A model generated the notes under the pieces. The model did not search any database. It was not told the DNA's origin and was given only the letters and a program-made list of their open reading frames with translations. A stretch of 64,000 bases of DNA from Thiomicrospira sp. XS5 (GTDB lineage: Bacteria > Pseudomonadota > Gammaproteobacteria > Thiomicrospirales > Thiomicrospiraceae): positions 1,612,001 to 1,676,000 of the forward strand of contig NZ_LQBO01000001.1 in assembly GCF_001507555.1 (NCBI RefSeq), read 5' to 3'. Below, in pieces: positions 2,319 to 64,000 of this stretch (position 1 is its first letter; every line of letters begins with the position of its first letter). The translations under genes and the position numbers were made by a program.

Positions 2319-5231
2319 ATGTCAAAGAATCATCCTGCATTTGAATTCATCACTGAACATTTCATCGAGTCGTTGAACATCACCGTTCAACACTTTAAGC
2401 ACAAAGTGACCGGCGCCGAGCATTACCACTTGGCCGCGGACGATCCGCAAAACGTCTTTATGGTCGCTTTACGGACCGTGCCGATGGATTCCACTGGCGT
2501 GGCCCATATTTTGGAACACACGGTTTTGTGCGGCAGTGAAAAGTATCCGGTGCGCGACCCGTTTTTCATGATGATTCGCCGCTCTCTGAACACCTTTATG
2601 AATGCTTTCACTTCCAGTGATTGGACCGCTTACCCGTTTGCGACCGAGAACCGAAAAGACTTTCAGAACCTGTTGGAAGTCTATATGGACGCGGTATTCT
2701 TTCCCAATATCGATCCGTTGGATTTCGCTCAGGAAGGGCACCGTTTAGAGTTTTCGGAGATGGACGATCCAACCTCCGAGTTGACCTATAAAGGCGTGGT
2801 GTTCAATGAAATGAAAGGCGCGATGAGTTCGCCGGTTTCCACGCTTTGGCAAACCTTTTCCGCGGAAATCTATCCGACGTCAACGTATCACTACAACAGC
2901 GGTGGCGACCCGAAAGACATTCCGGAATTGACTTATGAGCAATTGGTGGAATTCCATCGTTATCATTACCATCCGTCCAATTCGGTGTTTTTGACCTATG
3001 GCGACATTCCAGCCGCCGAGCATCAAACCCAGTTTGAAACCTTGGCTTTGCACCGCTTTAACGACCAAGTGGAACGCATTATGGTCGGCAAGGAGAAACG
3101 CTACACTCAGCCGATGCAGTTTGAAAACCGTTATGCTTTGAATGAAGACGATTTGTCGAAGAAAACCCACATTGTGCTCGGCTGGTTATTGGGTGAAAAC
3201 CAGAACCCGATGGATGTTCTGAAAGGGCACTTGCTGTCCGCCGTGCTGCTCGACAACAGTGCATCCCCTTTGCGTCAGGCCTTGGAAGCATCGCACTTGG
3301 CCACCGCGCCGTCGCCGCTATGCGGTTTGGAAGATTCCAATAAGGAAATGGTCTTTGTGGCTGGGGTGCAAGGTTCCGAAGCCGAACATGCCGAGGAAAT
3401 CGAAACGCTGATTTTGGACACGTTGAAACGCATTGTGCGTGACGGTATCGATACGGATCAGGTTGAGGCGATGTTGCATCAACTGGAATTATCACAACGC
3501 GAAATCGGCGGCGATTCTTATCCATACGGCTTACAGTTGATTCTGCAATCTCTGGCAGGCGCCATGCACGAAGGCGATCCGATTGCATTATTGGATACGG
3601 ATGCGGCGTTGCAAACCCTGCGTGAAGAGGTGACTGATCCGAATTTCATTCCGAACCTGATTCAAGAGTGGATTCTGGATAACCCGCACCGTGTGCGCCT
3701 GACCTTGTCACCGGACGACCAGCTTTCCGATGAGCAGGACGCCGCTGAAAAAGCCAAGCTGAAACGCATTCAGGAAGGCTTGAGCGACGCGGACAAACAC
3801 GCGATTGTTGAGCGCTCTCTGGCCTTGAAAGCACGTCAGGAGCAATTCGATGATGCGTCGATTTTGCCGGAGGTGACTAAAGAAGATGTTCCGGCAGAAA
3901 TTAAAGATATTCAACCGGTTAAATCCGATTCTGAAAGTCATTTAACGGCTTACCAGGCCGGGACCAACGGTTTGAGTTACTTGCAGATGATTCTGGACTT
4001 ACCGGATTTCTCGGCGGAAGAACAAGCGGTTTTACCTTTGTTCAATGCTTGTATGACGGAGTTGGGATCCGCCGGACGTGACTATCTGGAAACGCAATCC
4101 TTGCAGGCGGCGGTGACCGGTGGTTTGAGTGCCAAGTCGGCGGTGCGTGCAAATTTATATGACCGCGACGCCTTCCACTGTCATTTCATTTTATCCGGCA
4201 AGGCCTTGAATAAAAACCAACCAGGCCTGGCCGATTTGATGTTAGAAACGTTGGAGCAGGTGCGTTTCGACGAGTTTGACCGTATTCGCGATCTGATCGG
4301 GCAAATTCGTTCGTCAATGGATCACGGCATTACCGGTAACGGGCATGGCTTAGCGATGTCGGCGGCCAACCAAAATGCCTCGCCGGTGGCGAACTGGAAT
4401 TTTAACCGTTCCGGTTTTGCCGGTATTCAGGCGATTAAATCGATTTACAATTCACTGGCATCCGACGGTGAATTGGAACGCATCAGTCAATTGTTTGGCG
4501 GCATCCAGCAAAAGCTGTTGCAGGCGTCGAAACAAGCCCTGGTGATTTCCGACGAAACCGGCTTAGATTCGGCCGTCGGGAGCCTATCGGAATGGCATGG
4601 TCTTTTGTCGAACCGTGTGTCCGGTCAGGGATTACAACTGGCGGCTTCGCATGACAAAATTCGCCAGGCCTGGGTAACCAGTACACAGGTCAACTTCTGC
4701 GCGCAGTCTTACCCGGCGGTTATGGCGGGGCATGAAGACGCGCCGAAACTGTCGATTTTGGGCGCTTGCCTGCGCAACGGTTTCCTGCACTCCGAGATTC
4801 GCGAAAAAGGCGGTGCTTATGGCGGTGGGGCCACTTATAACGCCGAAGCCGGCACCTTTGTGTTCTTTTCTTACCGTGACCCGCGTCTGATGGAAACCTA
4901 TGCGGATTTCGACCGGGCGCTGGATTGGGTCCTCAGCGAAGACGCCACGCAAGCGAAGGTGGATGAAGCGATTCTGAACGTCATCAGCGCCATGGACAAA
5001 CCGGGCTCACCGGCCGGTGAAGCGCGCAAAGCGTTTTACCAGCAGTTGTACGGTCGCACCCATGCGATGCGCAAACAATATCGTGAAGGGGTTTTATCCA
5101 CCACGCTTGACGATATTCGTACGGTCGCGGAACGTTACTTGAAACCGGGTGTCGCTTCGTCGGCGGTGTTGACGCACAGCGGTATGAGCGATACCGTCAA
5201 AGACAATGGGTTTGACATCATTACGCTTTAA
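2319..5231 (+). CDS. M16C zinc metalloprotease, presequence-protease (PreP/Cym1) type
   Basis: A 970-aa inverzincin. The HXXEH zinc motif is intact as His63-Ile-Leu-Glu66-His67, with the distal zinc ligand likely Glu164 in VFNEMKG, at the same spacing as in PreP. The protein has the paired M16 halves joined by the M16C-associated hinge. This group degrades short unstructured peptides inside a closing clamshell chamber. There is no signal peptide, so it is probably cytosolic. The physiological substrate in bacteria is not established. A SIMPL-domain gene follows after 38 bases on the same strand and may be cotranscribed. Two exact copies of the window's CCAGGCCTGG palindrome lie inside this gene. 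Confidence 0.93.
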   Translation: MSKNHPAFEFITEHFIESLNITVQHFKHKVTGAEHYHLAADDPQNVFMVALRTVPMDSTGVAHILEHTVLCGSEKYPVRDPFFMMIRRSLNTFMNAFTSSDWTAYPFATENRKDFQNLLEVYMDAVFFPNIDPLDFAQEGHRLEFSEMDDPTSELTYKGVVFNEMKGAMSSPVSTLWQTFSAEIYPTSTYHYNSGGDPKDIPELTYEQLVEFHRYHYHPSNSVFLTYGDIPAAEHQTQFETLALHRFNDQVERIMVGKEKRYTQPMQFENRYALNEDDLSKKTHIVLGWLLGENQNPMDVLKGHLLSAVLLDNSASPLRQALEASHLATAPSPLCGLEDSNKEMVFVAGVQGSEAEHAEEIETLILDTLKRIVRDGIDTDQVEAMLHQLELSQREIGGDSYPYGLQLILQSLAGAMHEGDPIALLDTDAALQTLREEVTDPNFIPNLIQEWILDNPHRVRLTLSPDDQLSDEQDAAEKAKLKRIQEGLSDADKHAIVERSLALKARQEQFDDASILPEVTKEDVPAEIKDIQPVKSDSESHLTAYQAGTNGLSYLQMILDLPDFSAEEQAVLPLFNACMTELGSAGRDYLETQSLQAAVTGGLSAKSAVRANLYDRDAFHCHFILSGKALNKNQPGLADLMLETLEQVRFDEFDRIRDLIGQIRSSMDHGITGNGHGLAMSAANQNASPVANWNFNRSGFAGIQAIKSIYNSLASDGELERISQLFGGIQQKLLQASKQALVISDETGLDSAVGSLSEWHGLLSNRVSGQGLQLAASHDKIRQAWVTSTQVNFCAQSYPAVMAGHEDAPKLSILGACLRNGFLHSEIREKGGAYGGGATYNAEAGTFVFFSYRDPRLMETYADFDRALDWVLSEDATQAKVDEAILNVISAMDKPGSPAGEARKAFYQQLYGRTHAMRKQYREGVLSTTLDDIRTVAERYLKPGVASSAVLTHSGMSDTVKDNGFDIITL
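4221..4230. repeat. CCAGGCCTGG palindrome, coding copy in the M16C protease
   Basis: Exact copy read in the gene's frame as Pro-Gly-Leu within NQPGLADL. Confidence 0.9.
4664..4673. repeat. CCAGGCCTGG palindrome, second coding copy in the M16C protease
   Basis: Exact copy, 443 bases after the previous one, read as Gln-Ala-Trp in RQAWV. Confidence 0.9.
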
Positions 5232-5269
5232 CATGGATTAATCAGGCCAATAAGCCTAAAGGAGCCGTT

Positions 5270-7070: not shown

Positions 7071-7080
7071 CCAGGCCTGG
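7071..7080. repeat. CCAGGCCTGG palindrome after roxA
   Basis: Exact copy 22 bases past the roxA stop. Here the symmetry extends to 24 bp (AAAACGAC on the left, GTCGTTTT on the right) and the leftward transcript would end in a U-run. It is therefore the copy that most resembles a complete intrinsic terminator, with GGCC as the loop. Confidence 0.9.
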
Positions 7081-8376: not shown

Positions 8377-8386
8377 CCAGGCCTGG
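8377..8386. repeat. CCAGGCCTGG palindrome between roxA and purB
   Basis: Exact copy, 116 bases upstream of the roxA start and beyond the purB terminator. It is the only intergenic copy on the right side of this gap not close to a stop codon. Confidence 0.9.
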
Positions 8387-8472: not shown

Positions 8473-9885
<1,413 letters not shown>

Positions 9886-10047: not shown

Positions 10048-10476
10048 ATGGTGTTCAAACGAGTGAAAAGCTTCTGTCTGGCGGTACTATTGTTTTCGCC
10101 AGGCCTGGCGGTTTTGCCGACGGCACAGGCGGCTGGGTTCGAGGAAAAGAAAGGGGAAACCCACTTTGAAGGACGTAACCGCGAGTTTCGTTGGGAAAGC
10201 GACCGGGTGCATTACAAATGCAGTTCCGGCAAAAAGGTGACGGTGATTTACATGAACATCCAGCCGCAGGGCCATTTGGCGTTTATTGACTATGACGGCG
10301 TGATGCGGTTGATGCAACCCTATCGGGCCTCGGGCAATAGCGTTAAGTACATGGCGTTGGACGACCATAACAGTTTTCGTTGGCACCGCATTGGCGACCG
10401 AGGGTTTCTGAGTTATTTGCCTTACGGAAAGCATGGTGAACAGCGGTTGGAAAAATTGTGTCAGGTGGATGATTAA
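10048..10476 (+). CDS. Exported protein of unknown function
   Basis: I do not recognise a family. The preferred start at 10048 has an AAGGGAGAAAAGG purine-rich ribosome site before it; a longer frame from 10012 would add 12 polar residues ahead of the signal. From 10048 the product is 142 aa, with a clear Sec signal peptide (two basic residues, a hydrophobic core, then TAQA with cleavage near residue 28). The mature part is small and polar, with two cysteines that could form a disulfide in the periplasm. The next gene starts 3 bases after the stop, so the two are probably cotranscribed. A palindrome copy lies in the signal-peptide codons. Confidence 0.7.
   Translation: MVFKRVKSFCLAVLLFSPGLAVLPTAQAAGFEEKKGETHFEGRNREFRWESDRVHYKCSSGKKVTVIYMNIQPQGHLAFIDYDGVMRLMQPYRASGNSVKYMALDDHNSFRWHRIGDRGFLSYLPYGKHGEQRLEKLCQVDD
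10099..10108. repeat. CCAGGCCTGG palindrome, coding copy in a signal peptide
   Basis: Exact copy encoding Pro-Gly-Leu in the hydrophobic core of the exported protein's signal peptide. Confidence 0.9.
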
Positions 10477-10479
10477 GTC

Positions 10480-10932
10480 ATGAAATCCAAATCGGACTTG
10501 CCAATGAAATGGTCGCCAGTGGTACAGGAGGAGGCTACCGGTTGCGGCATTGCCGCGTCGGCGGCGCTGGCGCGCATTTCCTATGCCGAAGCCAAACGTG
10601 TGGCCGCACAAATGGGCCTTTCCGCTGCGGACAAACGTTTGTGGTCGAGCACCGATTGGGTGGTGCGCTTGCTGGGCGAACTCGGCATCGGCGTTCAATC
10701 GGAACCGACGCCGTTTACGACTTGGCACGATTTGCCGGATTGCGCCTTATTGGCGATTAAATGGCATTTGGAAAAGGGCCAGCCGTTTTGGCATTGGGTG
10801 GTGTTTATCCGTCAGGCGGACGGTCAGGCGTATGTATTGGATTCCAAAGCGGCGTTGAAACAGCATGTGCGGACCGATTTTGGCCGTATGAAACCGAAAT
10901 GGTTTTTGAACGTCGCTTTGGAAGTGATTTAA
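10480..10932 (+). CDS. C39-like papain-fold peptidase homologue
   Basis: A 150-aa protein with the layout of a C39-type cysteine peptidase: Gln16 six residues before Cys22 in the run EEATGCGIAAS, a His105 in FWHWVVF and Asp121 in VLDSK. That gives a plausible Cys-His-Asp triad plus oxyanion-hole Gln. There is no ABC or membrane part and no signal peptide, so it is not a bacteriocin exporter. It could be a stand-alone peptidase or an amide-bond enzyme. It follows the exported protein with a 3-base gap. The triad is seen in sequence; activity is inferred. Confidence 0.65.
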   Translation: MKSKSDLPMKWSPVVQEEATGCGIAASAALARISYAEAKRVAAQMGLSAADKRLWSSTDWVVRLLGELGIGVQSEPTPFTTWHDLPDCALLAIKWHLEKGQPFWHWVVFIRQADGQAYVLDSKAALKQHVRTDFGRMKPKWFLNVALEVI

Positions 10933-10950: not shown

Positions 10951-10960
10951 CCAGGCCTGG
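10951..10960. repeat. CCAGGCCTGG palindrome after the C39-like gene
   Basis: Exact copy 18 bases after the stop, symmetric over 14 bp (CA before, TG after), followed by an A-rich stretch rather than a T-tract on the coding strand. Confidence 0.9.
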
Positions 10961-11954: not shown

Positions 11955-11964
11955 CCAGGCCTGG
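11955..11964. repeat. CCAGGCCTGG palindrome after the DUF4395-like gene
   Basis: Exact copy 30 bases after the stop and followed by TTATTTTT, consistent with a weak intrinsic terminator on the plus strand. Confidence 0.9.
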
Positions 11965-12049: not shown

Positions 12050-12757
12050 ATGGAAGCCTTAACGGAATATGTAAAAAACCAAGTCTGGTTGCTTGAATAC
12101 CCCATTCGGTTTGAAGGGATGGATCTGTTCGGGCGAATGACCCTTATCCGTTTGGAAAATGGCGACCTGCTTATTCATGATCCCTGCAAAATAACCGATG
12201 CCATCCAGCAGCAGATTGATGACATTGGCTCGGTAAAATATATTGTTGCACCGGGCAGTTATCACCATCTATTCGTGACCGATTTTCAAGCGAAGTATCC
12301 GCAAGCGGAAACCTTTTTATGCCCTGGCTTGGAAAGGAAGCGACCGGATATTCCCTTTGACTGGATACTCGGTAATAAACCGGACCCGAGATGGGCGAAT
12401 GAAATCGACCAAGTGGTAGTGAGCGGCACCAAATATATGTGGGAAGTCGTTTTTTTCCATAAACCTTCCAAGACCTTGATTCTTGTTGATTTACTGGAAA
12501 ATATTGGTGACGACTACCGGCATCATACCAATTGGGTTTTGCGATTCTGGTGGAAGTTTGTTTTCGGCATGTGGAACAAGCCTAAACCTGCTCCGGAATA
12601 TCAAATCGGCTGGGGAAATAAAAAAATCGTTCAGACGGCATTGAATAAAATTCTGGACTGGCAGGCGGAAAGGGCGATTATTGCGCATGGCGAAACCATT
12701 GAAGAAGGCGTCAATGAGGTCTTGTCCGAGGCTTGGAAAAAGGTCTTAAAAGCATAA
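12050..12757 (+). CDS. DUF4336 domain-containing protein
   Basis: A 235-aa soluble protein matching the style of DUF4336, a family with a metallo-beta-lactamase-like fold. A conserved GSYHHLF segment lies near residue 69, and further acidic and histidine residues (LVDLLENIGDDYRHH) could bind metal, but the classical HXHXDH motif is absent. The reaction is unknown. The gene is monocistronic, with a palindrome copy on each side. Confidence 0.65.
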   Translation: MEALTEYVKNQVWLLEYPIRFEGMDLFGRMTLIRLENGDLLIHDPCKITDAIQQQIDDIGSVKYIVAPGSYHHLFVTDFQAKYPQAETFLCPGLERKRPDIPFDWILGNKPDPRWANEIDQVVVSGTKYMWEVVFFHKPSKTLILVDLLENIGDDYRHHTNWVLRFWWKFVFGMWNKPKPAPEYQIGWGNKKIVQTALNKILDWQAERAIIAHGETIEEGVNEVLSEAWKKVLKA

Positions 12758-12786: not shown

Positions 12787-12796
12787 CCAGGCCTGG
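12787..12796. repeat. CCAGGCCTGG palindrome after the DUF4336 gene
   Basis: Exact copy 29 bases after the stop; third successive gene in this stretch to carry one in its 3' flank. Confidence 0.9.
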
Positions 12797-21714: not shown

Positions 21715-21724
21715 CCAGGCCTGG
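21715..21724. repeat. CCAGGCCTGG palindrome after the beta-lactamase
   Basis: Exact copy 13 bases past the bla stop on the minus strand, with flanks TTTTGA and CCAAAT in that direction. Confidence 0.9.
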
Positions 21725-24882: not shown

Positions 24883-24892
24883 CCAGGCCTGG
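24883..24892. repeat. CCAGGCCTGG palindrome after the DUF6622-like gene
   Basis: Exact copy 32 bases after the stop, in a GC-rich flank (GA before, CCGCC after), so no T-tract is present. Confidence 0.9.
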
Positions 24893-25556: not shown

Positions 25557-25566
25557 CCAGGCCTGG
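25557..25566. repeat. CCAGGCCTGG palindrome upstream of the ParA gene
   Basis: Exact copy 119 bases before the preferred start codon, followed by GCATTTTTAAAC. Confidence 0.9.
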
Positions 25567-27208: not shown

Positions 27209-27703
27209 TTATGTATTGAGGACAATGTCGATGTTGAAGCCTTCATCCTCCGTTGGAGCCTGAAAGTAACGGTTGACCTGGTGAAACACCGTTTCGGTAT
27301 CAAATTGGGCGCGTTCCGGTGATTCCAGTCGGCGTTTTTCCAGCCGCTGTAAGCACAGCGAATCGTCGGTTTGCAGATAAATTAATTTATGGGGAATCTG
27401 ACTTTCGTCGAATAGCTCTTTAAACCAAGCCCGTTGTTTTGGGGTGTTGCCCGGAAAATCCATCACCACCGAAACGCCGGAATGCAACAGGCTTTGAACA
27501 TGGCTTTTTAGCAAGGGTTTCAAGCGTGCCGAATACAGGATGTAATCGTCAAAGTTTTGAATTTCATCAGGATAAAGAGCTACCAACCAATCATCTTCAG
27601 ACAGCAAAATCGCTTTGAGTTCGTTCGCCAGTTGTTTGGCGTAAGTCGATTTCCCCGCGCCCATTTTGCCGCTGAAAAAAAACAAGGTGCCTGTTTTATT
27701 CAT
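27209..27703 (-). CDS. P-loop kinase (AAA_33/zeta-toxin-like NTPase)
   Basis: A 164-aa protein with P-loop Gly12-Lys-Met-Gly-Ala-Gly-Lys18-Ser19 and a later Arg-rich lid (RLEKRRLESPER). It is likely a small-molecule or nucleotide kinase of the AAA_33 group; no antitoxin-like gene is attached. The start at 27703 has AAAGGA six bases upstream; an upstream extension to 27817 is unlikely. Its leader and start region are a 40-bp near copy of those of peroxiredoxin copy 2, so leader and gene were shuffled as a unit. Confidence 0.75.
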   Translation of the reverse strand: MNKTGTLFFFSGKMGAGKSTYAKQLANELKAILLSEDDWLVALYPDEIQNFDDYILYSARLKPLLKSHVQSLLHSGVSVVMDFPGNTPKQRAWFKELFDESQIPHKLIYLQTDDSLCLQRLEKRRLESPERAQFDTETVFHQVNRYFQAPTEDEGFNIDIVLNT

Positions 27704-27737
27704 TGCATATCCTTTGCAAATGGAGCATTCAATCAAA
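27698..27737. repeat. 40-bp duplicated leader, copy A
   Basis: Spans the kinase start codon and ribosome site. It matches 29523-29562 at 38 of 40 positions, and each copy is followed shortly by a CCAGGCCTGG palindrome. Confidence 0.85.
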
Positions 27738-27749
27738 TGAACAATATTA

Positions 27750-27759
27750 CCAGGCCTGG
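27750..27759. repeat. CCAGGCCTGG palindrome upstream of the kinase
   Basis: Exact copy 46 bases before the kinase start, followed by TCGTTTTTACC. Confidence 0.9.
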
Positions 27760-27819
27760 TCGTTTTTACCGAAAGGTATTGAAGCAATTTCGAGTAATCA
27801 ATCGAGTCGGATCTCATTG

Positions 27820-29586: not shown

Positions 29587-29596
29587 CCAGGCCTGG
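29587..29596. repeat. CCAGGCCTGG palindrome upstream of peroxiredoxin copy 2
   Basis: Exact copy, symmetric over 14 bp (CA before, TG after), 58 bases before the start codon and within the 3' flank of the VOC gene. Confidence 0.9.
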
Positions 29597-30201: not shown

Positions 30202-31449
30202 CTAGTTTTCATTGTAAGGCGAATGCGCCCAGCAATCCGCTGCATAGTCGTCAATCATGTGTTTTTCTTCTTCGATAAATCTGGCCAGGCCTGCCGGGAA
30301 TGGGTTTTGGGTGAGCCAGTGGGTGGAGCGCATTTTGACGGGAATGAAACCGCGGGCGATTTTGTGTTCGCCGCCGGCACCGGGTTCGAATTTTTGAATG
30401 TTATTTTCAATCGCGTAGTCGATGCCTTGGTAAAAACAAGTTTCGAAATGCAGGTGTTTGACTTCTTCAATGCAGCCCCAGTGGCGGCCGTAAAGCGTGG
30501 TGTCGGAGCGGAACATTAGGGCTCCGGCAATGCAGCGGCCGTCCAAATCGGCCAGCACCAGTAGAATTTGCTCGGGTATGGCTTGAGCAATGGCTTTAAA
30601 AAAGTTGAGGTTGAGTGTGGGGGTGCTCCATTTGTCGATAAAGGTTTTCTGGTAGAAATAACTGAAGTTGTCCCAATCGTCTTCGGTGGCGGTGTGGCCG
30701 TTGAGTTGACGAAATTGGAGGCCGCTTTCGGCCACGGCTTTGCGTTCCTGGCGGATGTTCTTGCGCTTTTTCTTTTTGAGTTGGGCGAGAAAGTCGTCGA
30801 AGGTTTGATAATCCTGATTGAACCAATGGAACTGGCAGTCGTGACGGAAGTATTCATTATCTCGTTTGTAATCCCGTTTATGCGATTCCAGCCAGGCCTG
30901 CTGTTCCGGGCTGGCGAACAACCAGTGAACGCCGCTCATATTGAGTTCTTCGGCCAAGGCCAATGCGCTGTCAAATAACTGTGTTTGCAGTTGTTCGGCG
31001 TCGAATAATCCATGGCCGATGCTTTCAGGCTGCGAGTGAATCAGAAAACGCTGTCCTTGCGCGGGGGTGTAAGGCACGGCGGAGACGAGTTTGGGGTAAT
31101 ACGGCAGGCCGACGTGATTCCACGCTTGTTCCCAGGCCTGGTCAAAAACGAATTCACCGTAATTATTGTGTTTTTCATACAACGGCAGGGCGGCCACGAT
31201 ACGGTCGCCGTCCGGGCTTTCATGGGTGAGCGTGAGATGATGCGGCAACCAGCCGAAATGTTCACCCACACAGCCGTGCGCTTCCAAAGCCGATAAAAAA
31301 CCGTGTTTGAGAAAGGGATTGTTGTCTTGCACTAAGGCATCCCATTGTGCAGCTTGCTCGGCGGAAAATTCGGTCAGACTGTTATGAACATCCAGACGCA
31401 GCTTGGCGGTTTCTGCGGAATGAGACAGGGTTTTTGGCTTTGTATTCAT
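30202..31449 (-). CDS. FemAB-like GNAT-fold protein (PF04339/DUF482)
   Basis: A 415-aa cytosolic protein of the peptidogalycan-biosynthesis/recognition group, with the typical NPFLKHGFLSALE opening and the HWGCIEEVKHLHFETCFYQG and FEPGAGGEHKIARGF motifs in the second half. It belongs to the acyl-transferase fold; members are conserved in proteobacteria but have no proven reaction. It contains one exact and two one-mismatch palindrome copies, an unusual density for a gene. Confidence 0.85.
   Translation of the reverse strand: MNTKPKTLSHSAETAKLRLDVHNSLTEFSAEQAAQWDALVQDNNPFLKHGFLSALEAHGCVGEHFGWLPHHLTLTHESPDGDRIVAALPLYEKHNNYGEFVFDQAWEQAWNHVGLPYYPKLVSAVPYTPAQGQRFLIHSQPESIGHGLFDAEQLQTQLFDSALALAEELNMSGVHWLFASPEQQAWLESHKRDYKRDNEYFRHDCQFHWFNQDYQTFDDFLAQLKKKKRKNIRQERKAVAESGLQFRQLNGHTATEDDWDNFSYFYQKTFIDKWSTPTLNLNFFKAIAQAIPEQILLVLADLDGRCIAGALMFRSDTTLYGRHWGCIEEVKHLHFETCFYQGIDYAIENNIQKFEPGAGGEHKIARGFIPVKMRSTHWLTQNPFPAGLARFIEEEKHMIDDYAADCWAHSPYNEN
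30285..30294. repeat. One-mismatch palindrome (CCAGGCCTGC) in the FemAB-like gene
   Basis: Nine of ten bases match, near the 3' end of the gene. Confidence 0.6.
30892..30901. repeat. One-mismatch palindrome (CCAGGCCTGC) in the FemAB-like gene, second copy
   Basis: Nine of ten bases match, mid-gene, encoding Gln-Ala-Trp in EQQAWLE. Confidence 0.6.
31132..31141. repeat. CCAGGCCTGG palindrome, coding copy in the FemAB-like gene
   Basis: Exact copy encoding Gln-Ala-Trp in FDQAWEQ. Confidence 0.9.
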
Positions 31450-34304: not shown

Positions 34305-35885
34305 TTAACCGACGGTAACGCGGTTACGCCCCTTTTCTTTGGAACGGTACAACAAACCATCCCCGCGGTGCATCAGGCTTTCTGCCGTGTCTTTGGGTTT
34401 TAATTCCGTGACTCCAAAGCTGGAGGTGACCTTCAAGCCTTGAATATCCAAGTTTTCCAGCGTTTTACGCAGGCGCTCCGCCACTTTTTCAGCATCTTCT
34501 AAATAGGTTTCTGTCAGGAGGATGACAAATTCTTCACCGCCCCAGCGAGCGAAAACATCCTTGCTGGTGAGGCCGTCTTCCACAGTCCGGGCAATGGTGG
34601 TTAGCACTTTGTCGCCCATCAGGTGGCCATGATTGTCGTTAATTTGTTTGAAATGGTCAATATCGAAGAACACCAGACTCAGCGGTTTTTGTTTGGATTG
34701 ACTGCGTTTCATCTGCTCATTTAAAGCGCGCTTAAAGACATTACGATTTGGCAGTTTGGTCAAGCTGTCGGTGCGTGCCATTTTGTGCAACAAGCGTTTT
34801 TGGCGAATTTGGTTGCGCAGGTAGAAGAACGTCAACAAGCTGATAATGAACAGCAAGCTTTCGTTTACCACATTGATTTTCATAAAGTTTTCGGTCACGA
34901 TGCGCAAACCGGGTTCATTAATGTAATTGACGATGTAACCGACGGCTTGGTCTTCGGTATTTTTCAGCGGGAAAAAACTGACCAAATAATAGGTTTGGTT
35001 AATATTGGTCACCAAATGACAAACATTGCATTCGTCGAGTATGCCCTCAAAATCATCGTGCAGTTTTTCGTTGATGGCGTGAATGCGCTTTTGAGAAATA
35101 CTGTTTGGACGCTTTTCGTGGTAGTGGACACTTTTGTCCACCACATAGTTTGCGGAGATTTCCGACGGCGCATAGTTACTTTGCTCGCTTTCGAACACCT
35201 TGTGTTTGATCAGATCTTTTTTCAACAGCAAATCGTGCGCTTCGTTGTGGTCGTGAGTAATGAGGTGGTAAATGGCGTCGATGGAGAAGGAAATCTCCAC
35301 GCTGCCGACCAACTCGCCTTGGTAATGCAATGGATAGACATGGCGGAAGCCGTTGAAAATGCGGCCTTCTTCAAATCCGAACACTGGTTTTTGGGTTTTG
35401 TGTACCTGGTCGATGCTGTAGCGGACGTTCGACAAGTCGTCGCCGAATAGAGCCGGGCGGTGGAAGCGCAAAAAGCTGGTGTTATCCGGGAGATGGAAAT
35501 GCAGTTGTCGAATGTATTCGGCCTTGAGTAAGCGGTACAAGGGTTCCAGTCGATCGTAAATGGCTTGCCGTGTCTCGTTACGAACCGCTTCGTCGCCATG
35601 ATACGCTTGGGCCATTAAGCGGAGAATATCGGGCTGATTGATGGCCGAGGTAAAAATAACATCGGCATTAATTCGTAACGCTTTTTGGCTGGAATTGAAG
35701 CTGTTGATTTCCTGCTGGCTGGCATAGTGAATCAGGTGTTGTTTTTGGGTGCTGTAATTGGTGTAGGTAATCCAGATGCTACCGATGCTGAGCAGAACAA
35801 ATACCGCAATGGAAACGAGGAGCGCCAATCGCTTTGGAGGGAGATTTTTCCAGCGTCGGAAAGTTCTTTTGGCAGGTGTCGACAT
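34305..35885 (-). CDS. Membrane GGDEF diguanylate cyclase with a CXXCH motif in its sensor domain
   Basis: A 526-aa protein: TM1 (about 18-40), a long periplasmic sensor (about 41-335), TM2 (about 340-356) and a C-terminal GGDEF domain with active-site GGEEF at 449-453. The inhibitory RXXD site is absent at the usual place. The sensor contains Cys286-Asn-Val-Cys289-His290, a c-type haem attachment motif. A haem-linked sensor for redox or gas signals is a reasonable inference; a chance motif or disulfide pair is the alternative. It would make c-di-GMP from GTP. Confidence 0.88.
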   Translation of the reverse strand: MSTPAKRTFRRWKNLPPKRLALLVSIAVFVLLSIGSIWITYTNYSTQKQHLIHYASQQEINSFNSSQKALRINADVIFTSAINQPDILRLMAQAYHGDEAVRNETRQAIYDRLEPLYRLLKAEYIRQLHFHLPDNTSFLRFHRPALFGDDLSNVRYSIDQVHKTQKPVFGFEEGRIFNGFRHVYPLHYQGELVGSVEISFSIDAIYHLITHDHNEAHDLLLKKDLIKHKVFESEQSNYAPSEISANYVVDKSVHYHEKRPNSISQKRIHAINEKLHDDFEGILDECNVCHLVTNINQTYYLVSFFPLKNTEDQAVGYIVNYINEPGLRIVTENFMKINVVNESLLFIISLLTFFYLRNQIRQKRLLHKMARTDSLTKLPNRNVFKRALNEQMKRSQSKQKPLSLVFFDIDHFKQINDNHGHLMGDKVLTTIARTVEDGLTSKDVFARWGGEEFVILLTETYLEDAEKVAERLRKTLENLDIQGLKVTSSFGVTELKPKDTAESLMHRGDGLLYRSKEKGRNRVTVG

Positions 35886-42299: not shown

Positions 42300-42309
42300 C
42301 CAGGCCTGG
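42300..42309. repeat. CCAGGCCTGG palindrome after the DUF3817 gene
   Basis: Exact copy 20 bases past the DUF3817 stop; on the minus strand it is flanked by AAAATCA and TGGTTTT, a terminator-like arrangement. Confidence 0.9.
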
Positions 42310-43484: not shown

Positions 43485-46400
43485 TTAGGTGTCCTTATTT
43501 GCGATGGTTGCCACGATCAGTTCAATGGCGTCGATTCGTTGTTTCATGTCAGGCATTGTATCGAAATATTTTAATTCCGTTTGCCCTTTTAGTTGATAGT
43601 TCTTCGGGTGATTTTGAATCAATTTAATCAATTCCACCGGGTTGATGTTCGGGCTGTCGCCGAATTGGATGCGAATCATCGATTCGGACGCTTCGAGTTT
43701 TTTCAGGTTCAGCGGTTCGATCAACAGTTTGACGCGGGTGGCTTCGAACAGGTTTTTGACCTGCGGCGGCAAAAGCCCGAAACGGTCAATCATTTCCACT
43801 TCCAATTCTTGCAAGTTGGCGTTGCTGTCGGCACTGGCGATGCGTTTGTAGAACACTAAACGAGTGTGGATGTCCGGCAGGTAGTCTTCCGGAATCAAGG
43901 CCGGTAAACCAAGTTCGATTTCTGCGCCGGTGTGGAGCTTGGCTTCCAACTCGGGTTGTTTGCCGGATTTTAACGATTTAACGGCGCGCTCCAACAATTC
44001 GGAGTAAAGGCCGAAACCGATTTCCTGAATCTGGCCGGATTGACCGTCACCGAGCAGTTCGCCCGCGCCACGGATTTCCAAGTCGTGGCTGGCAAGCATG
44101 AACCCGGCACCGAGAGTGTCGTGTTTGGCGATGGCGGTGAGGCGTTTTTCCGCATCGGCGGTCATCAGGCTTTTCCCGGCGGTGAACATATAGGCGTAAG
44201 CTTTGTGGTGTGAACGCCCGACACGGCCGCGTAACTGATGCAATTGCGCCAGACCGAATTTGTCGGCGCGGTGAATCAAAATGGTGTTGGCGGTCGGGAT
44301 GTCGATACCGGTTTCGATGATGGTGGTGCAGACCAGGATGTTGAAACGGCGGTGATAAAAATTCTGCATCACCTGTTCCAGCTCACGCTCGTGCATTTGA
44401 CCGTGGGCGACGTCGACCTTGGCTTCCGGCAGGAGTTCGCGCATGTCTTCGGCCATTTGCTCGATGCGGTCGACGTTGTTGTAAAGCAAATAAATTTGCC
44501 CGCCACGGCGGATTTCCCGCAGACAGGCTTCTTTGACCACGTCCGGGTTCCATTCCTGCACGAAAGTTTGCACCGCTAGGCGTTTGGCCGGCGGCGTGGC
44601 GATAATCGATAAGTCACGTAGGTCATTCATCGCCATGTTAAGGGTTCTTGGAATCGGTGTGGCGGTCATGGTGAGCACGTCCACCTCGGTGCGCAGTTTC
44701 TTGAGCTGTTCTTTTTGGCGCACGCCGAAACGGTGTTCCTCGTCGATGATGATCAGGCCGAGGTTGTCGAATTTCATGTCGCCCTGAATCAGCTTATGGG
44801 TGCCGATAACGATATCGACCTGTTTGTTTTGAACCGCTTCGAGAATCTGTTTGGTTTCCTTGGCGGTTTGGAAACGGGATAAGCCTTCAATGCGCACCGG
44901 CCAGTCGGCAAAACGGTTTTTAAAGTTTTCCATGTGTTGCTGTGCCAGCAGGGTGGTCGGCACCAAGACCGCAACCTGTTTGCCGGCGTAAGCCGCAATG
45001 AAGGCGGCGCGCATGGCCACTTCGGTTTTGCCGAAGCCGACGTCGCCGCAAATGAGGCGGTCCATCGGTTTGCTGGCTTGCATGTCATGCACCACCGCAT
45101 CAATGGCGGCCTCCTGATCGGGCGTTTCTTCGAACGGGAAGCTGGCGCTGAAACGGGCGTAAGCTTCTTCGTCGGTTTCGAAAGAATGACCAGGCCTGGC
45201 TTCGCGCTGGGCGTAGATGTCGAGCAGTTCGGCGGCGACGTCGCGGACTTTTTCGGCGGCTTTGCGCTTGGCTTTGTCCCATTTGTCGGAGCCGAGTTTG
45301 TGTAAGGGTGCGGTTTCGGCGCTGGCGCCGGTGTAACGGCTGATGAGGTGCAGCGAGGTGACGGGCACGTATAACTTGGCGTCCCCGGCGTATTCGATCA
45401 TCAGGAATTCGTGTTCTTCGCCTTGGATGGTCATGGTTTCCAGACCCAGGTAGCGGCCGACCCCGTGGTCGAAATGGACTATCGGGCTGCCGACGTCCAG
45501 TTCGATGAGGTTGGAAATGGCGGTGTCGAATTCGGAGTGTTTGCGCTTACGGCGTCGTTTCTGAATGACGGTTTGACCGAAAATTTGCGCTTCGGAAATC
45601 AGGCAGAAATCCGGTGTGAAGATGGATTCCTCCAACGGTCCGACCACGATTTGATGCGGTAAATCGTTGTGTTTGAAGGCATTCCAATCATCAACGGTTT
45701 TCGGAACTTTTCCTTTAAATTCAGTGTGTTTTCCGAGCAGTGTTAACAGCGTTTCTCGGCGTCCGGTGGATTCGGCGCAATACAGAATGCGGCCGCCGTA
45801 TTCGCTGTGGTACTGATCCAGAAACGCGTTGAGTTTGGCCATTGGGTATTCGCTGTTGGCCTGGACGTTTAAATCCGGTGTCGGCAGCGTTTTGAAGTCC
45901 ACCTGGCTTTTGCCGGACGCAATGCGTTCCATTTGAATGCGGTGGTGGTTTTTCAGGGCGCTGAAAATTTCGTTTTCAGTTTGAATCAATTCTTCCGGCG
46001 GCAACACCGGGTAGTCCGGGTTGTGCTGGGCGATTTGATAGCGCTCGCGGTAATCGCGCCAGTTTTGTTCAATGGCGTCCTGAATGGCCGGTTGACTGAA
46101 GAACAGACTGTTTTCGGGAATGTAGTCAAACAGTGTGGCGGTTTCGGGGTGAAATAATGACAGGTAATATTCCAGGCCATCAACAGTCTGGCCGTTATGA
46201 ACCGCTTTGTACAACAGGCTGTTGCGGGATTCGTCGCCGAAAGTTTGCCGGAAGGATTGCTTGAATAGGGTGATGCCGTCCGGGTTGAGGTCGTATTCTT
46301 TGGCGGGCAGGAGTTCGATTTGCTCAATCTGTTCGGTGCTGAGCTGGGTTTCCGGGTCGAAGCAGCGGATGGTTTCGACTTCGTCGTCGAACAGGTCCAA

Positions 46401-46958
46401 CCGGAAAGGCGTGCGGCTGCCCATCGGGAAGAGGTCGATAATCGAGCCGCGCACCGCAAATTCGCCGTGTTCCATCACCTGACTGACGCGTTGATAACCG
46501 CCGGATTCCAAACGCTGGGTAAAGGGTTCGGTGTCGAGGGTGTCGCCACACTTTAAGATAAAGGTGTATTGTTCAATGAAGCTGTGGGGAACCACTTTCT
46601 GCAACAGGGTGCTGACCGGCAGAATCAAAATGCCTTTTTGGGTTTGCGGCAGTTGATAGAGCGTGCGCAGGCGTTGCGAGATGATGTCCTGGTGCGGTGA
46701 AAACTGATCGTAGGGCAGGGTTTCCCATTCCGGAAAGTTCAGAATCGAAAGGTCGCCTTCGGAAAAGAAGTTCAGCGCGTCTTCGTATTTATTGGCTTCG
46801 CTCATGTCCTGAGTCAGCAAAACCACCAGGCCTGGGTGATTTCGGGCTTTTTCCATAATGGCGAGGGCATCTTCGGCGGAGGTGTTGAGCGACCAGTGGG
46901 AGACTTGGCCTTTAAGCGGAACCTGTTCGGCTTCCAGCAAGGAATAGGTTTTGGACAT
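43485..46958 (-). CDS. mfd: Transcription-repair coupling factor
   Basis: The 1157-aa DNA translocase that removes stalled RNA polymerase and recruits UvrA. It has the UvrB-homology module (about 1-340), the RNA polymerase-interacting CarD-like domain (near 480-545, LDVGSPIVHFDHGVGRY), RecG-type helicase motifs with Walker A GDVGFGKTE (about 638) and DEEH (about 738), and the C-terminal TRCF domain. All expected parts are present. Two exact palindrome copies lie within the gene. Confidence 0.97.
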   Translation of the reverse strand: MSKTYSLLEAEQVPLKGQVSHWSLNTSAEDALAIMEKARNHPGLVVLLTQDMSEANKYEDALNFFSEGDLSILNFPEWETLPYDQFSPHQDIISQRLRTLYQLPQTQKGILILPVSTLLQKVVPHSFIEQYTFILKCGDTLDTEPFTQRLESGGYQRVSQVMEHGEFAVRGSIIDLFPMGSRTPFRLDLFDDEVETIRCFDPETQLSTEQIEQIELLPAKEYDLNPDGITLFKQSFRQTFGDESRNSLLYKAVHNGQTVDGLEYYLSLFHPETATLFDYIPENSLFFSQPAIQDAIEQNWRDYRERYQIAQHNPDYPVLPPEELIQTENEIFSALKNHHRIQMERIASGKSQVDFKTLPTPDLNVQANSEYPMAKLNAFLDQYHSEYGGRILYCAESTGRRETLLTLLGKHTEFKGKVPKTVDDWNAFKHNDLPHQIVVGPLEESIFTPDFCLISEAQIFGQTVIQKRRRKRKHSEFDTAISNLIELDVGSPIVHFDHGVGRYLGLETMTIQGEEHEFLMIEYAGDAKLYVPVTSLHLISRYTGASAETAPLHKLGSDKWDKAKRKAAEKVRDVAAELLDIYAQREARPGHSFETDEEAYARFSASFPFEETPDQEAAIDAVVHDMQASKPMDRLICGDVGFGKTEVAMRAAFIAAYAGKQVAVLVPTTLLAQQHMENFKNRFADWPVRIEGLSRFQTAKETKQILEAVQNKQVDIVIGTHKLIQGDMKFDNLGLIIIDEEHRFGVRQKEQLKKLRTEVDVLTMTATPIPRTLNMAMNDLRDLSIIATPPAKRLAVQTFVQEWNPDVVKEACLREIRRGGQIYLLYNNVDRIEQMAEDMRELLPEAKVDVAHGQMHERELEQVMQNFYHRRFNILVCTTIIETGIDIPTANTILIHRADKFGLAQLHQLRGRVGRSHHKAYAYMFTAGKSLMTADAEKRLTAIAKHDTLGAGFMLASHDLEIRGAGELLGDGQSGQIQEIGFGLYSELLERAVKSLKSGKQPELEAKLHTGAEIELGLPALIPEDYLPDIHTRLVFYKRIASADSNANLQELEVEMIDRFGLLPPQVKNLFEATRVKLLIEPLNLKKLEASESMIRIQFGDSPNINPVELIKLIQNHPKNYQLKGQTELKYFDTMPDMKQRIDAIELIVATIANKDT
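45190..45199. repeat. CCAGGCCTGG palindrome, coding copy in mfd
   Basis: Exact copy encoding Ala-Arg-Pro-Gly in REARPGHS. Confidence 0.9.
46826..46835. repeat. CCAGGCCTGG palindrome, second coding copy in mfd
   Basis: Exact copy near the 5' end, encoding Pro-Gly-Leu in NHPGLVV. Confidence 0.9.
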
Positions 46959-52670: not shown

Positions 52671-52671
52671 T

Positions 52672-54633
52672 ATGCTCAGTATTCAATCCGTTACCTTGAT
52701 GGCCGGGGCAAAAGTCCTGTTAGAAAATGCGTCTCTGGTGATTCATCCGGGGCAAAAAATCGGTTTAATCGGTGCCAATGGGGCCGGGAAATCCACGCTG
52801 CTCAAAGCTATTTTGAATGAAGTGCCGCTGGATACTGGCACCATTGCGATGCCCGAGGCCTGGCAGGTAGGGTATGTGGAGCAAGAGCAAACGCACCTGT
52901 ACATGAAAGCGCTGGATTATGTGATGTTTGGCGATACTCTGTATGCTCAAGCACGCAACAAAATCCAGCAGGCGGAGCGTGACAACCAACACGAGCGACT
53001 GGTGGCGGCTTACGATGAGTTAGATCATATCGACGGTTACGATGTGCCGATGAAAGCCCAGCAATTGATGTATGGTTTGGGATTTAAGGAGGCGGATTTC
53101 GATAAACCGCTGGAAGCCTTTTCCGGTGGTTGGCAAGTGCGTTTAAAGTTAGGCCGGGCTTTGATGCAGCGCGCGGATTTACTTTTACTGGACGAACCGA
53201 CCAACCATTTGGATATTGAAGCGGTTTCCTGGTTGGTGCAGTGGTTGAAATCCTTTCAAGGGGCAGTCATCGTCATTTCCCATGACCGCCATTTCTTAGA
53301 CGAGGTGGTGCAGGGCATTGCGCAACTCGATCAAGGGCGTATTCACTATTTTACCGGCAATTTCGCCGCCTTCGAACGCCAGCGTAACGAGCAGTTGATG
53401 CAGCAACAGGCGTTGCACGACAAGCAGAAACAGCAGATGCAGCATTTGAAATCGTTTATCGAACGCTTCAAAGCCAAGGCGTCCAAAGCCAAGCAGGCGC
53501 AAAGTCGTGTCAAAGCCATGGAGCGTATGGAGCAAGTGGCCGCGGTTCAAGCGACGAACCCGTTTCAATTTCAATTGGCGGAACCGGATCACCTTCCCGA
53601 CCCGATGCTGAATGTTGAAGAATTGAGTTTTGGCTATGGCGATGAACCGATTCTGCAAGAGGCTTCGTTGGTGTTGCGCGCCGGTGACCGCATTGGTTTG
53701 GTTGGGGTGAACGGCTCCGGAAAATCGACGTTGTTGAAACTGTTGATTCGAGAGTTGCAACCGAAAAGCGGGGTGGTCAAGCACAGTAAAGGCCTGAAAA
53801 TCGGCTATTTCGCACAGCATCAATTGGAAGCCTTGAACCCAAATCAAACGCCTTTGGCACATATGCTGGCGCTTGGCAAGGAAATGATGACGAACATTAC
53901 CGATCAAGAAGCACGGGATTTTCTCGGGCGATTCGGTTTTGGGCATGATAAAGCTCTGTCGCCGGTCAAGCCGTTTTCCGGTGGCGAAAAGGCGCGTTTA
54001 TCCTTGGCGTTGATGGTGTATCAAAAACCGAACCTAGTGATTTTGGATGAACCGACCAACCATTTGGATATGGAAACCCGTGACGCGCTGGAAATGGCGT
54101 TGCAAGCGTTTTCCGGGGCTTTGATTCTGGTGACGCACGATCAGCATTTGCTATCGAGTATTGTCGACCAGTTTTGGTGGGTGCATGACTCTCGGGTGGA
54201 GCGTTATGCCGGGGATTTGGAAAGTTACTTGCAACAGCGGTTAAAACGCCTGAAAGAAAAGCAGGCCAGTATCAAAGCCGAGAAAGCCGCCAATTCGGCC
54301 AGGCCTGGCGATTCTTCGGATGACAATGGGGCCGTTAATAAAAAAGCTCAGCGCCAGGAAAACGCCCAATTCCGTAAGCGTCTTAAAGAGGCGACGCGTG
54401 CGCAAACTAAGCGGTTGGCCCAAGTGGAAAAGGCGTTATCAAAAGCGCAGGATGAATTGACGAAAATTCACACGACGATGGAAGATGCCGGTTTATATGA
54501 GGCGAGCCGTTCCGAAGAATTGACCGCATTGCTCAAAGAGGAAGCGCGTTTAACCGCTGACATCGAAACGCTGGAAGAAGAGTGGTTGCTGTTGGAAGCG
54601 GAAATCGAAGAAATCACCGAAACGTTTGAATAG
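52672..54633 (+). CDS. ABC-F family ATPase (YheS-like)
   Basis: A 653-aa soluble protein with two ABC domains, no membrane part. Walker A sites are GANGAGKST and GVNGSGKST; Walker B sites LLLDEPTNHLD and VILDEPTNHLD. The inter-domain arm is near 235-290, and a long C-terminal coiled coil (about 535-650) ends the protein. ABC-F proteins act on ribosomes to relieve stalls. The lolCD-ABC-F operon link is noted but the functional reason is unclear. A palindrome copy lies at the start of the coiled coil. Confidence 0.93.
   Translation: MLSIQSVTLMAGAKVLLENASLVIHPGQKIGLIGANGAGKSTLLKAILNEVPLDTGTIAMPEAWQVGYVEQEQTHLYMKALDYVMFGDTLYAQARNKIQQAERDNQHERLVAAYDELDHIDGYDVPMKAQQLMYGLGFKEADFDKPLEAFSGGWQVRLKLGRALMQRADLLLLDEPTNHLDIEAVSWLVQWLKSFQGAVIVISHDRHFLDEVVQGIAQLDQGRIHYFTGNFAAFERQRNEQLMQQQALHDKQKQQMQHLKSFIERFKAKASKAKQAQSRVKAMERMEQVAAVQATNPFQFQLAEPDHLPDPMLNVEELSFGYGDEPILQEASLVLRAGDRIGLVGVNGSGKSTLLKLLIRELQPKSGVVKHSKGLKIGYFAQHQLEALNPNQTPLAHMLALGKEMMTNITDQEARDFLGRFGFGHDKALSPVKPFSGGEKARLSLALMVYQKPNLVILDEPTNHLDMETRDALEMALQAFSGALILVTHDQHLLSSIVDQFWWVHDSRVERYAGDLESYLQQRLKRLKEKQASIKAEKAANSARPGDSSDDNGAVNKKAQRQENAQFRKRLKEATRAQTKRLAQVEKALSKAQDELTKIHTTMEDAGLYEASRSEELTALLKEEARLTADIETLEEEWLLLEAEIEEITETFE
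54299..54308. repeat. CCAGGCCTGG palindrome, coding copy in the ABC-F gene
   Basis: Exact copy encoding Ala-Arg-Pro-Gly in the variable linker NSARPGDSS, a place tolerant of sequence change. Confidence 0.9.
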
Positions 54634-61938: not shown

Positions 61939-61975
61939 TTATTATTTCGATGATTATTCAATCATCACCCTGTTC

Positions 61976-62198: not shown

Positions 62199-62208
62199 CC
62201 AGGCCTGG
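62199..62208. repeat. CCAGGCCTGG palindrome after fabI
   Basis: Exact copy 17 bases past the fabI stop and ahead of a conventional terminator, so here it is not needed for termination. Confidence 0.9.
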
Positions 62209-63002: not shown

Positions 63003-63180
63003 TTTGACTCCTTTGTTCTACTAGGTTGTTTCCGAAAAATGTACAAAAATAATTTGGGTCATTATAACGTTAAAATCGGGCTATAATGATCTTCTTTTTA
63101 TTTGAAAAACCATTCGTAATTTTGATAACCTAGTCGGAATGTCGAGTCGATTCAAATCTCTCTTATAAAGCGGATGAAGC

Positions 63181-64000
63181 GTGGTTGGTAACTTCTTAAA
63201 AATCAGTGTGATTTTATCGGTAATCATGTTTTTTTCCGGCTGTGACGGCAGCCGATGGAACAGCCCTTATGAACTGTCGCAAGTGGAAGAGCCGGTGCTG
63301 TTTTCGGCTTTTTCATCCCGCCCGAAACATCTTGATCCGGTGATTTCCTATAATGCCAACGAATGGTCGATTATCAGCCAGGTCTATGAGCCGCCGCTGC
63401 AATACCATTATTTAAAACGCCCTTATACTCTTGAGCCGTTGACCCTGACGGAAATGCCGACAGTGACCTTTTTAAATCAGGCCGGAGAAGTGGTGTCCGA
63501 GGGATCCGGCGAGGTTGCCTTTTCGGAATATCGGCTGCAACTGAAACCCAACATCTATTTCCAACCCCATCCGGCCTTTGTCAAAGATGCGCAGGGGCAA
63601 CCGGCATTGGTGCCGCTTACCAACGAGCAGTTGGAAGGTATCCGAACCTTGGAAGACTTTACCGAAACCGATACCCGTCCTTTGACCGCGGACGATTATG
63701 CTTATGCCATCAAGCGTATGGCGGTGACCAGCAACCATTCGCCGATTTTGGGCACCATGAAGCCGCTGATTGTCGGCATGGCATCGTTTTCGAAAGCGGT
63801 GTCGGCGCAACCGGTGACGGTACCCGAACTCAGACAAAAGGATTTGCCCGGCGTGCAGGTGGTGTCGGACCGCGAATTGCGCATCCGCATTCATGGGGTT
63901 TATCCGCAATTTCCGTATTGGTTGAGCATGAATTTCTTCGCGCCGATTCCTTGGGAAGCGGAGGTGTTTTATGATCAGCCAGGCCTGGCGGAAAAGAATA
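63181..64000 (+). CDS. Oligopeptide-type ABC transporter substrate-binding lipoprotein (SBP_bac_5), partial
   Basis: An open frame from a GTG at 63181 (a stop lies two codons upstream, GGA at 63172) that runs off the window end, at least 273 codons. The N-terminus is a lipoprotein signal with lipobox FSGC, so the protein is tethered to the outer face of a membrane. The mature part shows the family 5 opening (RPKHLDPVISYNANEWSI, then QVYEPPLQYHY) and a later DDYAYAIKRM segment, as in peptide-binding proteins. Longer inserts than usual occur between these. The ligand is unknown; permease genes would lie beyond the window. Confidence 0.85.
   Translation, partial: MVGNFLKISVILSVIMFFSGCDGSRWNSPYELSQVEEPVLFSAFSSRPKHLDPVISYNANEWSIISQVYEPPLQYHYLKRPYTLEPLTLTEMPTVTFLNQAGEVVSEGSGEVAFSEYRLQLKPNIYFQPHPAFVKDAQGQPALVPLTNEQLEGIRTLEDFTETDTRPLTADDYAYAIKRMAVTSNHSPILGTMKPLIVGMASFSKAVSAQPVTVPELRQKDLPGVQVVSDRELRIRIHGVYPQFPYWLSMNFFAPIPWEAEVFYDQPGLAEKN
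63979..63988. repeat. CCAGGCCTGG palindrome, coding copy in the substrate-binding protein
   Basis: Exact copy encoding Pro-Gly-Leu in DQPGLAEK at the window edge. Confidence 0.9.

Follow-up and report, generated by a model that had tools for sequence, protein, structure and literature searches.

The window analysed here is a stretch of 64,000 nucleotides from the 2.63 Mb genome of Thiomicrospira sp. XS5 (genome G000 in our set; window G000:C1:1612001-1676000), whose genus, common to it and genome G010, is taken as Hydrogenovibrio. The 10-bp palindrome CCAGGCCTGG is present in the window in 21 exact copies, located both within genes and in the gaps between them (Table 1). All of them stand where an earlier sequence-only reading of this DNA had placed them, and 100 dinucleotide-preserving shuffles of the window contain 0.01 copies on average and one at most. 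Copies with one mismatch number 12, so that the earlier figure of at least eight was right but low. Each copy literally consists of two back-to-back CCWGG sites (CCAGG and CCTGG), as had been pointed out, but the conserved unit is larger than these two sites, with AT-rich boxes that lie 3-8 bp beyond the palindrome.

A total of 677 copies of CCAGGCCTGG were counted in the whole XS5 genome, corresponding to 257 per Mb, while the reversed word used as a control has none. A sample of 544 kb, composed of the window and 24 stretches of 20 kb from the same genome, contains 135 copies, whereas 1.4 are expected from a third-order Markov model. Counts close to such an expectation, named beforehand as grounds for giving up the motif, were thus not seen. 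The comparison with words of equal composition, also proposed in that reading, gave an average of 0.70 copies for 6300 such words in the 544 kb, and the four most frequent of them, with 62 to 21 copies, overlap the motif itself in shifted register. Among the 1024 palindromic 10-mers the runner-up has 11 copies. Over-representation by orders of magnitude across a genome is expected of DNA uptake sequences (DUS) and uptake signal sequences (USS).

Alignment of 114 sites from the XS5 genome (two of 116 were dropped at sequence edges) displays the longer motif AAA.C..CCAGGCCTGG..G.TTT. With the sites oriented, the AT boxes carry 0.4-1.07 bits per position, and none of 20 null alignments exceeds 0.24. 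Farther out than about 8 bp the null is exceeded by a single weak signal at 14 bp (0.32 bits), and the conserved stretch spans only about 24 bp. The boxes are kept inside genes, where 55 of 67 sites have one or two of them, compared to a rate of 10% per side at random positions; on the coding strand the box is found upstream at 46 of the 67, downstream at 30 and on both sides at 21. Intergenic sites possess boxes on both sides in 44 of 67 cases. The boxes of genomes G005 and G006 (18 core sites each) read as A-runs instead of T-runs, and AT-richness may therefore count more than the exact base.

The gene caller used for locating the sites was crude, since it is based on codon usage alone, ran neighbouring 20-kb stretches together and overlooked genes such as the open reading frame (ORF) 12050..12757, and the gene fractions are therefore approximate. 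On this basis 67 of the 135 sites fall in predicted genes, compared to a coding share of 83.5% (p about 1e-19). Four sampled zones of the chromosome hold 21.5-32.8 sites per 100 kb without clustering by zone. Presence both in and between genes, with depletion in genes and no confinement to one region, is what DUS and USS lead one to expect. Intergenic sites facing a 3' gene end are close to it, 43 of 59 within 60 bp and with a median distance of 35 bp. Convergent gaps contain 25 of 66 intergenic sites while making up 18% of the intergenic length; divergent gaps, with 24% of that length, contain seven. Spacing between the sites is more even than random (coefficient of variation 0.82, p 0.0095). 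Peptides encoded at in-gene sites, such as PGL(V/A) and QAW, would be of a tolerant kind.

Table 1. Copies of CCAGGCCTGG in the window and features next to them (window positions).
Feature	Position	Strand	Context
Motif copy	4221..4230	.	In ORF 2319..5231 + (weak pitrilysin-type peptidase match); phase CCA GGC CTG G (PGL)
Motif copy	4664..4673	.	Inside ORF 2319..5231 +, as the preceding copy
Intergenic copy	7071..7080	.	AT box on each side (gaaaacga..tcgttttt); 27 bp past gene 3' end; can form a hairpin, judged by eye
Intergenic copy	8377..8386	.	91 bp past 3' end of 8473..9870 - (purB)
Motif copy	10099..10108	.	In predicted gene 10048..10476 +; opposite ORF 10087..10728 - overlaps, gene call unsure
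Intergenic copy	10951..10960	.	23 bp past gene 3' end
Intergenic copy	11955..11964	.	35 bp past gene 3' end
Intergenic copy	12787..12796	.	About 35 bp past stop of ORF 12050..12757 + (from ORF list; missed by gene caller)
Intergenic copy	21715..21724	.	18 bp past gene 3' end
Intergenic copy	24883..24892	.	37 bp past gene 3' end
Intergenic copy	25557..25566	.	
Copy counted intergenic by gene caller	27750..27759	.	Inside longer listed ORF 27209..27817 -
Intergenic copy	29587..29596	.	
Motif copy	31132..31141	.	Inside gene 30202..31449 -
Copy between convergent genes	34279..34288	.	Between acnB (31614..34187 +) and GGDEF gene (34305..35885 -)
Copy between convergent predicted genes	42300..42309	.	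Box on both sides (aaaacca..tgatttt)
Motif copy	45190..45199	.	Inside ORF 43485..46958 - (1157 aa), which we take to be Mfd, the transcription-repair coupling factor; closest relatives in Thiomicrorhabdus, Hydrogenovibrio and Thiomicrospira
Second motif copy in the same ORF	46826..46835	.	Inside ORF 43485..46958 -
Motif copy	54299..54308	.	Inside ABC-F ATPase gene (52672..54633 +)
tRNA cluster	61659-62052		Val-Asp-Val-Asp, apparently a duplicated pair
Copy between tRNA-Val/Asp cluster and convergent gene	62199..62208	.	22 bp past 3' end of the convergent gene
Motif copy near window edge	63979..63988	.	No gene called there

The word is not restricted to XS5. Counts of its core CAGGCCTG are bimodal over 62 genomes of the family, with 236-1173 copies in 32 motif-rich genomes and 0-74 in the other 30, and genera g1 and g3 each contain genomes of both classes. 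The word ACAGGCCTGT is present in 113-224 copies in four g3 genomes and in 23-46 copies in four more. In 15 genomes of the class from outside the family, CCAGGCCTGG occurs 0-35 times and the reversed control 0-13 times. Four congeners with none or one copy of the palindrome (G010, G001, G004 and G008) possess related, non-palindromic words of their own with a fixed right side. The word of G010 and G001 is CCCAACCTGGYAGATTTT, in extended form cCCCAACCTGGYAGATTTT, and that of G004 is CCCAGCCTGGYAGATTTT, extended to acCCCAGCCTGGYAGATTTT. Genome-wide, CCCARCCTGGYAG was found 331, 376 and 314 times in G010, G001 and G004, giving about 128-157 per Mb, and at most once in any of the other 59 genomes. 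These asymmetric words occupy both strands (forward/reverse 182/149 in G010, 195/181 in G001 and 178/136 in G004, the last a mild excess). A sample of 78 kb from G008 contains CCACCCCTGG eight times, with 0.1 expected, and CCCCTGGCGATTTT five times. Outside this set, G047 has the word ACCGGCCGGT (19 copies of CCGGCCGG in 46 kb), CCAGGCCTGC is often present in G070 and G015, and the word of G043 may be ACAGGCCGG (six in 38 kb). All 11 genomes of the window's genus in our set carry such a word, seven by core count, three by the asymmetric pattern and G008 on its sample only. We read CCAGGCCTGG, CCCAACCTGG-YAGATTTT, CCCAGCCTGG-YAGATTTT, CCACCCCTGG-CGATTTT, ACAGGCCTG and ACCGGCCGGT as putative dialects of one tag. 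CCTGG plus GATTTT is common to the asymmetric words, and the palindromic forms therefore look like two overlapping copies of a half-site made of CCTGG and an AT box.

A phylogenetic tree was constructed from the Mfd proteins of 30 genomes, with word labels that rest on samples of 20 kb upward. Each derived word found in several genomes (CCCAACCTGG, ACAGGCCTG and SCAGGCCTGS) forms one clade. The labels require eight changes on the tree, where six is the least possible and shuffled labels need 15.5 on average; none of 200 shuffles was as low. CCAGGCCTGG does not form a single clade (five changes) but is present in all four word-bearing genera, and is therefore probably the ancestral dialect. The label for genomes in which no word was found changes four times. 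Related dialects that follow the phylogeny of their carriers are likewise expected of DUS and USS. No iterated word was detected in samples of 40-47 kb from G012, G045, G049, G051 and G069, nor a clear one in 6-40 kb from G011, G014, G017, G038, G059 and G061, samples in which a rarer word could be missed. G016 yielded repeats only and no established word in a sample of 40-47 kb, with the same limit. A candidate word of G050, from a sample of that size, vanished once clustered copies were damped and was not counted.

Comparison of orthologous positions reveals that the same places are marked in related genomes, with different words. G010 and G004 share 74.5% identity, and each of the seven mappable G004 sites faces a G010 site in the alignment, against 0.06 expected by chance (seven of 11 in the reverse direction), in a count that leaves out four comparisons, one partly colinear (three of four mappable sites) and three not colinear. 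At the 11 G010 sites, G004 has its own word at seven, the G010 word at one and a decayed word at one, while one site has no readable partner and one is unaligned. The two words differ there by one base, and this dialect base, A in G010, is G in seven of the eight readable G004 partners; the background of identical 9-mers between the two genomes is 9%. Pairs with the same word also share their mappable sites, 8 of 8 between G005 and G006 (78.7% identity, background 17.5%), 10 of 10 between G010 and G001 (89.2%, background 40%) and 16 of 17 between G000 and G002 (92.7%, background 58%). The word is therefore present at orthologous sites of close relatives, where its absence had been named as an outcome that would undo the proposal. 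From G001 to G004, six of ten sites coincide. Three of four do so from G009 to G010 (chance 0.38) and two of three from G009 to G005 (chance 0.25), although two of the former three and both of the latter match only within gaps between aligned blocks. At one site the palindrome is found in G000 and G009, CCAACCTGG in G010 and G001, and CCAGCCTGG in G004. The switch also changes proteins. At three orthologous in-gene sites NAPNLVDFR corresponds to NDPSLADFR, PPNLVEIQ to NPSLVEIQ and TPTWQKF to TPAWQKF, so that the A-to-G change of the dialect base replaces N by S twice and T by A once. The peptide PNL(A/V)(D/E) is encoded at 7 of 15 in-gene sites of G010 and PSL(A/V)(D/E) at 5 of 8 in G004.

A word that is kept in genes despite amino-acid change, rewritten in concert and undetected in some lineages demands a trans-acting recogniser with a preference for DNA that bears it, and biased uptake followed by recombination would suffice by itself. 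We put the probability at about three in four that CCAGGCCTGG and its AT-rich boxes together serve this Hydrogenovibrio as a DNA uptake sequence, or self tag, a function that we infer together with its receptor and the drive behind it. A surface DNA receptor, probably a minor pilin of type IV, would prefer double-stranded DNA bearing the motif, the pilus would pull such DNA in, ComEC would pass one strand into the cytoplasm, and recombination would swap resident alleles for the incoming strand. Since uptake would favour tagged over untagged alleles, the tag would accumulate across the genome. This is molecular drive, reportedly a model of Maughan and colleagues. Selection would confine the tag largely to places where it is nearly harmless, shortly beyond gene ends or in tolerant peptides, and some of the gene-end copies might double as terminator-like hairpins. 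A palindrome could be read from either end. A shift in the preference of the receptor would be followed by the set of sites, and dialects would result. The sequence-only reading had listed several roles without choosing among them; the uptake signal is the best supported of these, the terminator does not hold except as a secondary use at some intergenic sites, and a C5 methylase is not needed.

Neisseriaceae and Pasteurellaceae are the only families known for sequence-specific DNA uptake according to a 2025 paper (PMC12616744). The XS5 word resembles the DUS of Neisseriaceae in its many copies, in dialects that follow the tree, in inverted pairs at terminators and in its occurrence within genes as well as between them. 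Such inverted pairs are described in PMC3630211 for DUS and in PMC5217627 for USS, and overlapping dyad pairs of DUS in S. muelleri are mentioned in PMC3630211. Unlike these, the word here is unrelated and belongs to another bacterial class, its commonest dialect is palindromic with AT boxes on both sides, and no ComP homologue passed the cut-off. The USS of Pasteurellaceae also consist of a core and a downstream AT-rich tract (PMC12616744), are depleted in genes to a similar degree (47-70% in genes against 84-89% coding; PMC2346458), and have an orientation bias inside genes, as does the XS5 box with its upstream preference. They differ in an unrelated and asymmetric core, where the XS5 word is palindromic, and in two AT tracts at helical spacing, compared to one strong box 3-8 bp from the core. 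Their receptor is only predicted (PMC12616744), and ComP is therefore not defining for the whole kind. The feature is real, strong and apparently undescribed, and very probably represents uptake sequences, in several dialects, from a third family of bacteria. Among the literature matches listed, mostly non-subscription papers, none combines the term DNA uptake sequence with Thiomicrospira and none reports an uptake word or another iterated word from Thiomicrospira, Hydrogenovibrio or Thiomicrorhabdus, in agreement with the earlier statement that no role was known in this lineage; the passages matched by a few terms in PMC5217627 and PMC6501319 contain nothing on this word.

It is likely that Thiomicrospiraceae would be a third family in which sequence-specific uptake evolved independently, with at least six dialects including palindromic ones and at least four inside Hydrogenovibrio (one of them from the 78-kb sample), and with a one-base change written into orthologous sites that could act as a mating barrier between species. 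To our knowledge it would be the first family with palindromic uptake sequences. Decades of work on sequence-specific DNA uptake have centred on two unrelated, mostly host-associated families, and its origin and purpose have therefore been argued from two cases. If true, the present case would be a third, in autotrophs that are free-living and oxidise sulfur, where one family has several dialects next to lineages without a detected word. Comparative tests could then address how specificity comes about, how a whole genome switches its word and whether dialects limit gene exchange, and the single-base switch that separates G010 from G004 is a natural experiment ready for this use. A practical transformation route for organisms used in studies of carbon fixation and vent ecology would be a further gain.

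Carriers of DUS or USS are expected to have a type IV pilus with secretin and ComEC, and this machinery is seen here in part. Of the 32 motif-rich genomes 31 encode ComEC, and the one that does not is 82% complete. The prepilin motif PF07963 is present in 61 of 62 genomes, with counts that do not visibly track the word when compared by eye. The XS5 genome contains an MSHA-type pilus operon (L097:1205-11130), a candidate for the DNA-uptake pilus, and a Tad-like operon (L090:8962-19925) whose proteins are over no cut-off. Three of the six genomes without a ComEC match, G069, G039 and G040 (99%, 99% and 84% complete), have 39, 67 and 35 copies of CAGGCCTG, all in the low class.

Several results weigh against the uptake interpretation. 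ComEC is also present in 25 of the 30 other genomes, several of them without an iterated word in samples of 40-47 kb, and therefore does not by itself predict the motif. The receptor model ComP_DUS (PF16732) has no match over the cut-off in the 62 genomes and one below it, GspH/FimT matches three of the 62 and none in XS5, and the PilQ model is over the cut-off in none, with weaker matches in 57. The two XS5 secretins examined are one of MSHA type (MshL over the cut-off) and one over no cut-off. Across the deeper split within the genus (about 72% identity) few sites are shared: one of six mappable G000 sites coincides in each of G010, G001 and G004, three of eight in G009, and two of five in each of G005 and G006, with chance values of 0.13-0.28 over the six comparisons and with one match each in G009, G005 and G006 falling only within gaps between aligned blocks. 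Turnover of the sites is therefore real. The sharing between G000 and G002 is weak evidence, as 58% of all 10-mers are identical there. Densities of 257 per Mb for the word and 128-157 for the dialects are, as far as we know, lower than in Neisseria or Haemophilus, and that of the XS5 word is lower than we know for USS. No report of transformation or uptake in the family is among the literature matches listed. Variants of CCAGGCCTGG with one change are enriched as well, numbering 85 where 26.9 are expected, and the excess concerns mainly the first base (GC.. 16x, TC.. 9x), a pattern that is described for HIP1 of cyanobacteria (see below).

The strongest rival, in our view unlikely, holds that the motif is bound by a chromosomal protein, such as a nucleoid-associated, replication or segregation factor, with hundreds of sites and a specificity that drifted between species. 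In its favour are the spread over all four sampled zones, the conservation at orthologous places in near relatives and the dialects, which demand a trans-acting recogniser with a changeable preference. It fits less well with the lack of clustering in any zone and with a palindrome that has no strand orientation and asymmetric words that lie on both strands, and loss of the sites in several lineages would be surprising for a housekeeping factor, given that samples of eight genomes in the tree show no word. For the same reason of strand, use as a Chi-like recombination signal or as a segregation signal of the KOPS (FtsK-orienting polar sequences) type is unlikely, as these would lead one to expect a strand-biased asymmetric word.

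Less probable still is an origin like that of HIP1 (highly iterated palindrome) of cyanobacteria, in which an orphan DNA methyltransferase coupled to mismatch repair makes and keeps the word and the words of relatives reflect other methylases. HIP1 is likewise a GC-rich palindrome in many copies, some cyanobacteria have alternates of it, each with a methylase, and the concentration of one-off variants at the first base is reported for it too (PMC4390886). HIPs track methylases and reach 1000-2000 sites per Mb according to that paper, compared to 257 here, and HIP1-type words would all be palindromes, whereas CCCAACCTGGYAGATTTT, CCCAGCCTGGYAGATTTT and CCACCCCTGGCGATTTT are asymmetric. The four congeners with asymmetric words and a one-sided T-run are not explained by a palindrome-specific methylase, nor is the bias to 3' ends shared with HIP1. 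In a search limited to the C5 class, the C5 methylase family PF00145 has no match in the XS5 genome or in any of the nine genomes of the motif-rich genus g6, and it occurs in 11 of 32 motif-rich against 13 of 30 other genomes. C5 methylation on CCWGG or GGCC was rejected as a requirement on the XS5 result.

A function as a favoured core of transcription terminators and nothing else is very improbable. Besides the position just past 3' gene ends and the excess in convergent over divergent regions, it can draw on hairpins: contiguous pairing of the flanks at 67 intergenic sites (one of 68 was dropped at an edge) averages 2.64, compared to 0.77 in shuffles (maximum 1.42), and the arms are extended by at least 5 bp at 19 of the 67. 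G010 has eight pairs of neighbouring sites within 80 bp where 0.7 are expected, all inverted and folding as hairpins; G004 has three such pairs (0.4 expected) and G001 one (0.3 expected), again all inverted. Inverted pairs or hairpins near 3' gene ends are also expected of DUS and USS. Half of the sites lie in genes without additional arm pairing (0.58 against 0.51), keep their AT box and are among those conserved at orthologous places, which is why the reading was rejected. A terminator needs a stem rather than one particular word, and its words would not switch in concert. A dispersed mobile repeat, of the repetitive extragenic palindrome (REP) or miniature inverted-repeat transposable element (MITE) type, would account for the high copy number and was rejected as hardly tenable, because the conserved stretch is so short, with its single weak signal about 14 bp out, and single substitutions are what distinguishes orthologous copies, rather than an element that is there in one genome and missing in another.

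Other repeats were encountered in the sampled genomes. A poly-G word, mostly GGGGGGAGAAA followed by AT-rich sequence, is dispersed in L233, L234, L235, L028 and L040 (G064, G065 and metagenome-assembled genomes of Thiomicrorhabdus), where GGGGAGAAA occurs 11 times, possibly a further dialect or an unrelated tract; the poly-G words of G058, G064 and G065 were set aside. G018, without an iterated word in its sample, has a CRISPR-like array at L131:9902-15745 with a repeat of about 28 bp and a period of about 60, and GTGGATTGAAAC occurs 38 times in 20 kb of L151 (G041, 100001-120000), also CRISPR-like. In L012 (Gammaproteobacterium NAT125) GTCGGGTTA is found 12 times in 23 kb in close inverted pairs (e.g. 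5438-5513, 16944-17082 and 21964-22034) and looks like a REP-type hairpin element. Large repeats of about 18 copies each, with a period of about 318 bp in L101 (G010, from about 8.8 kb) and about 306 bp in L147 (G009, around 9.6-10.9 kb), probably encode repeat proteins.

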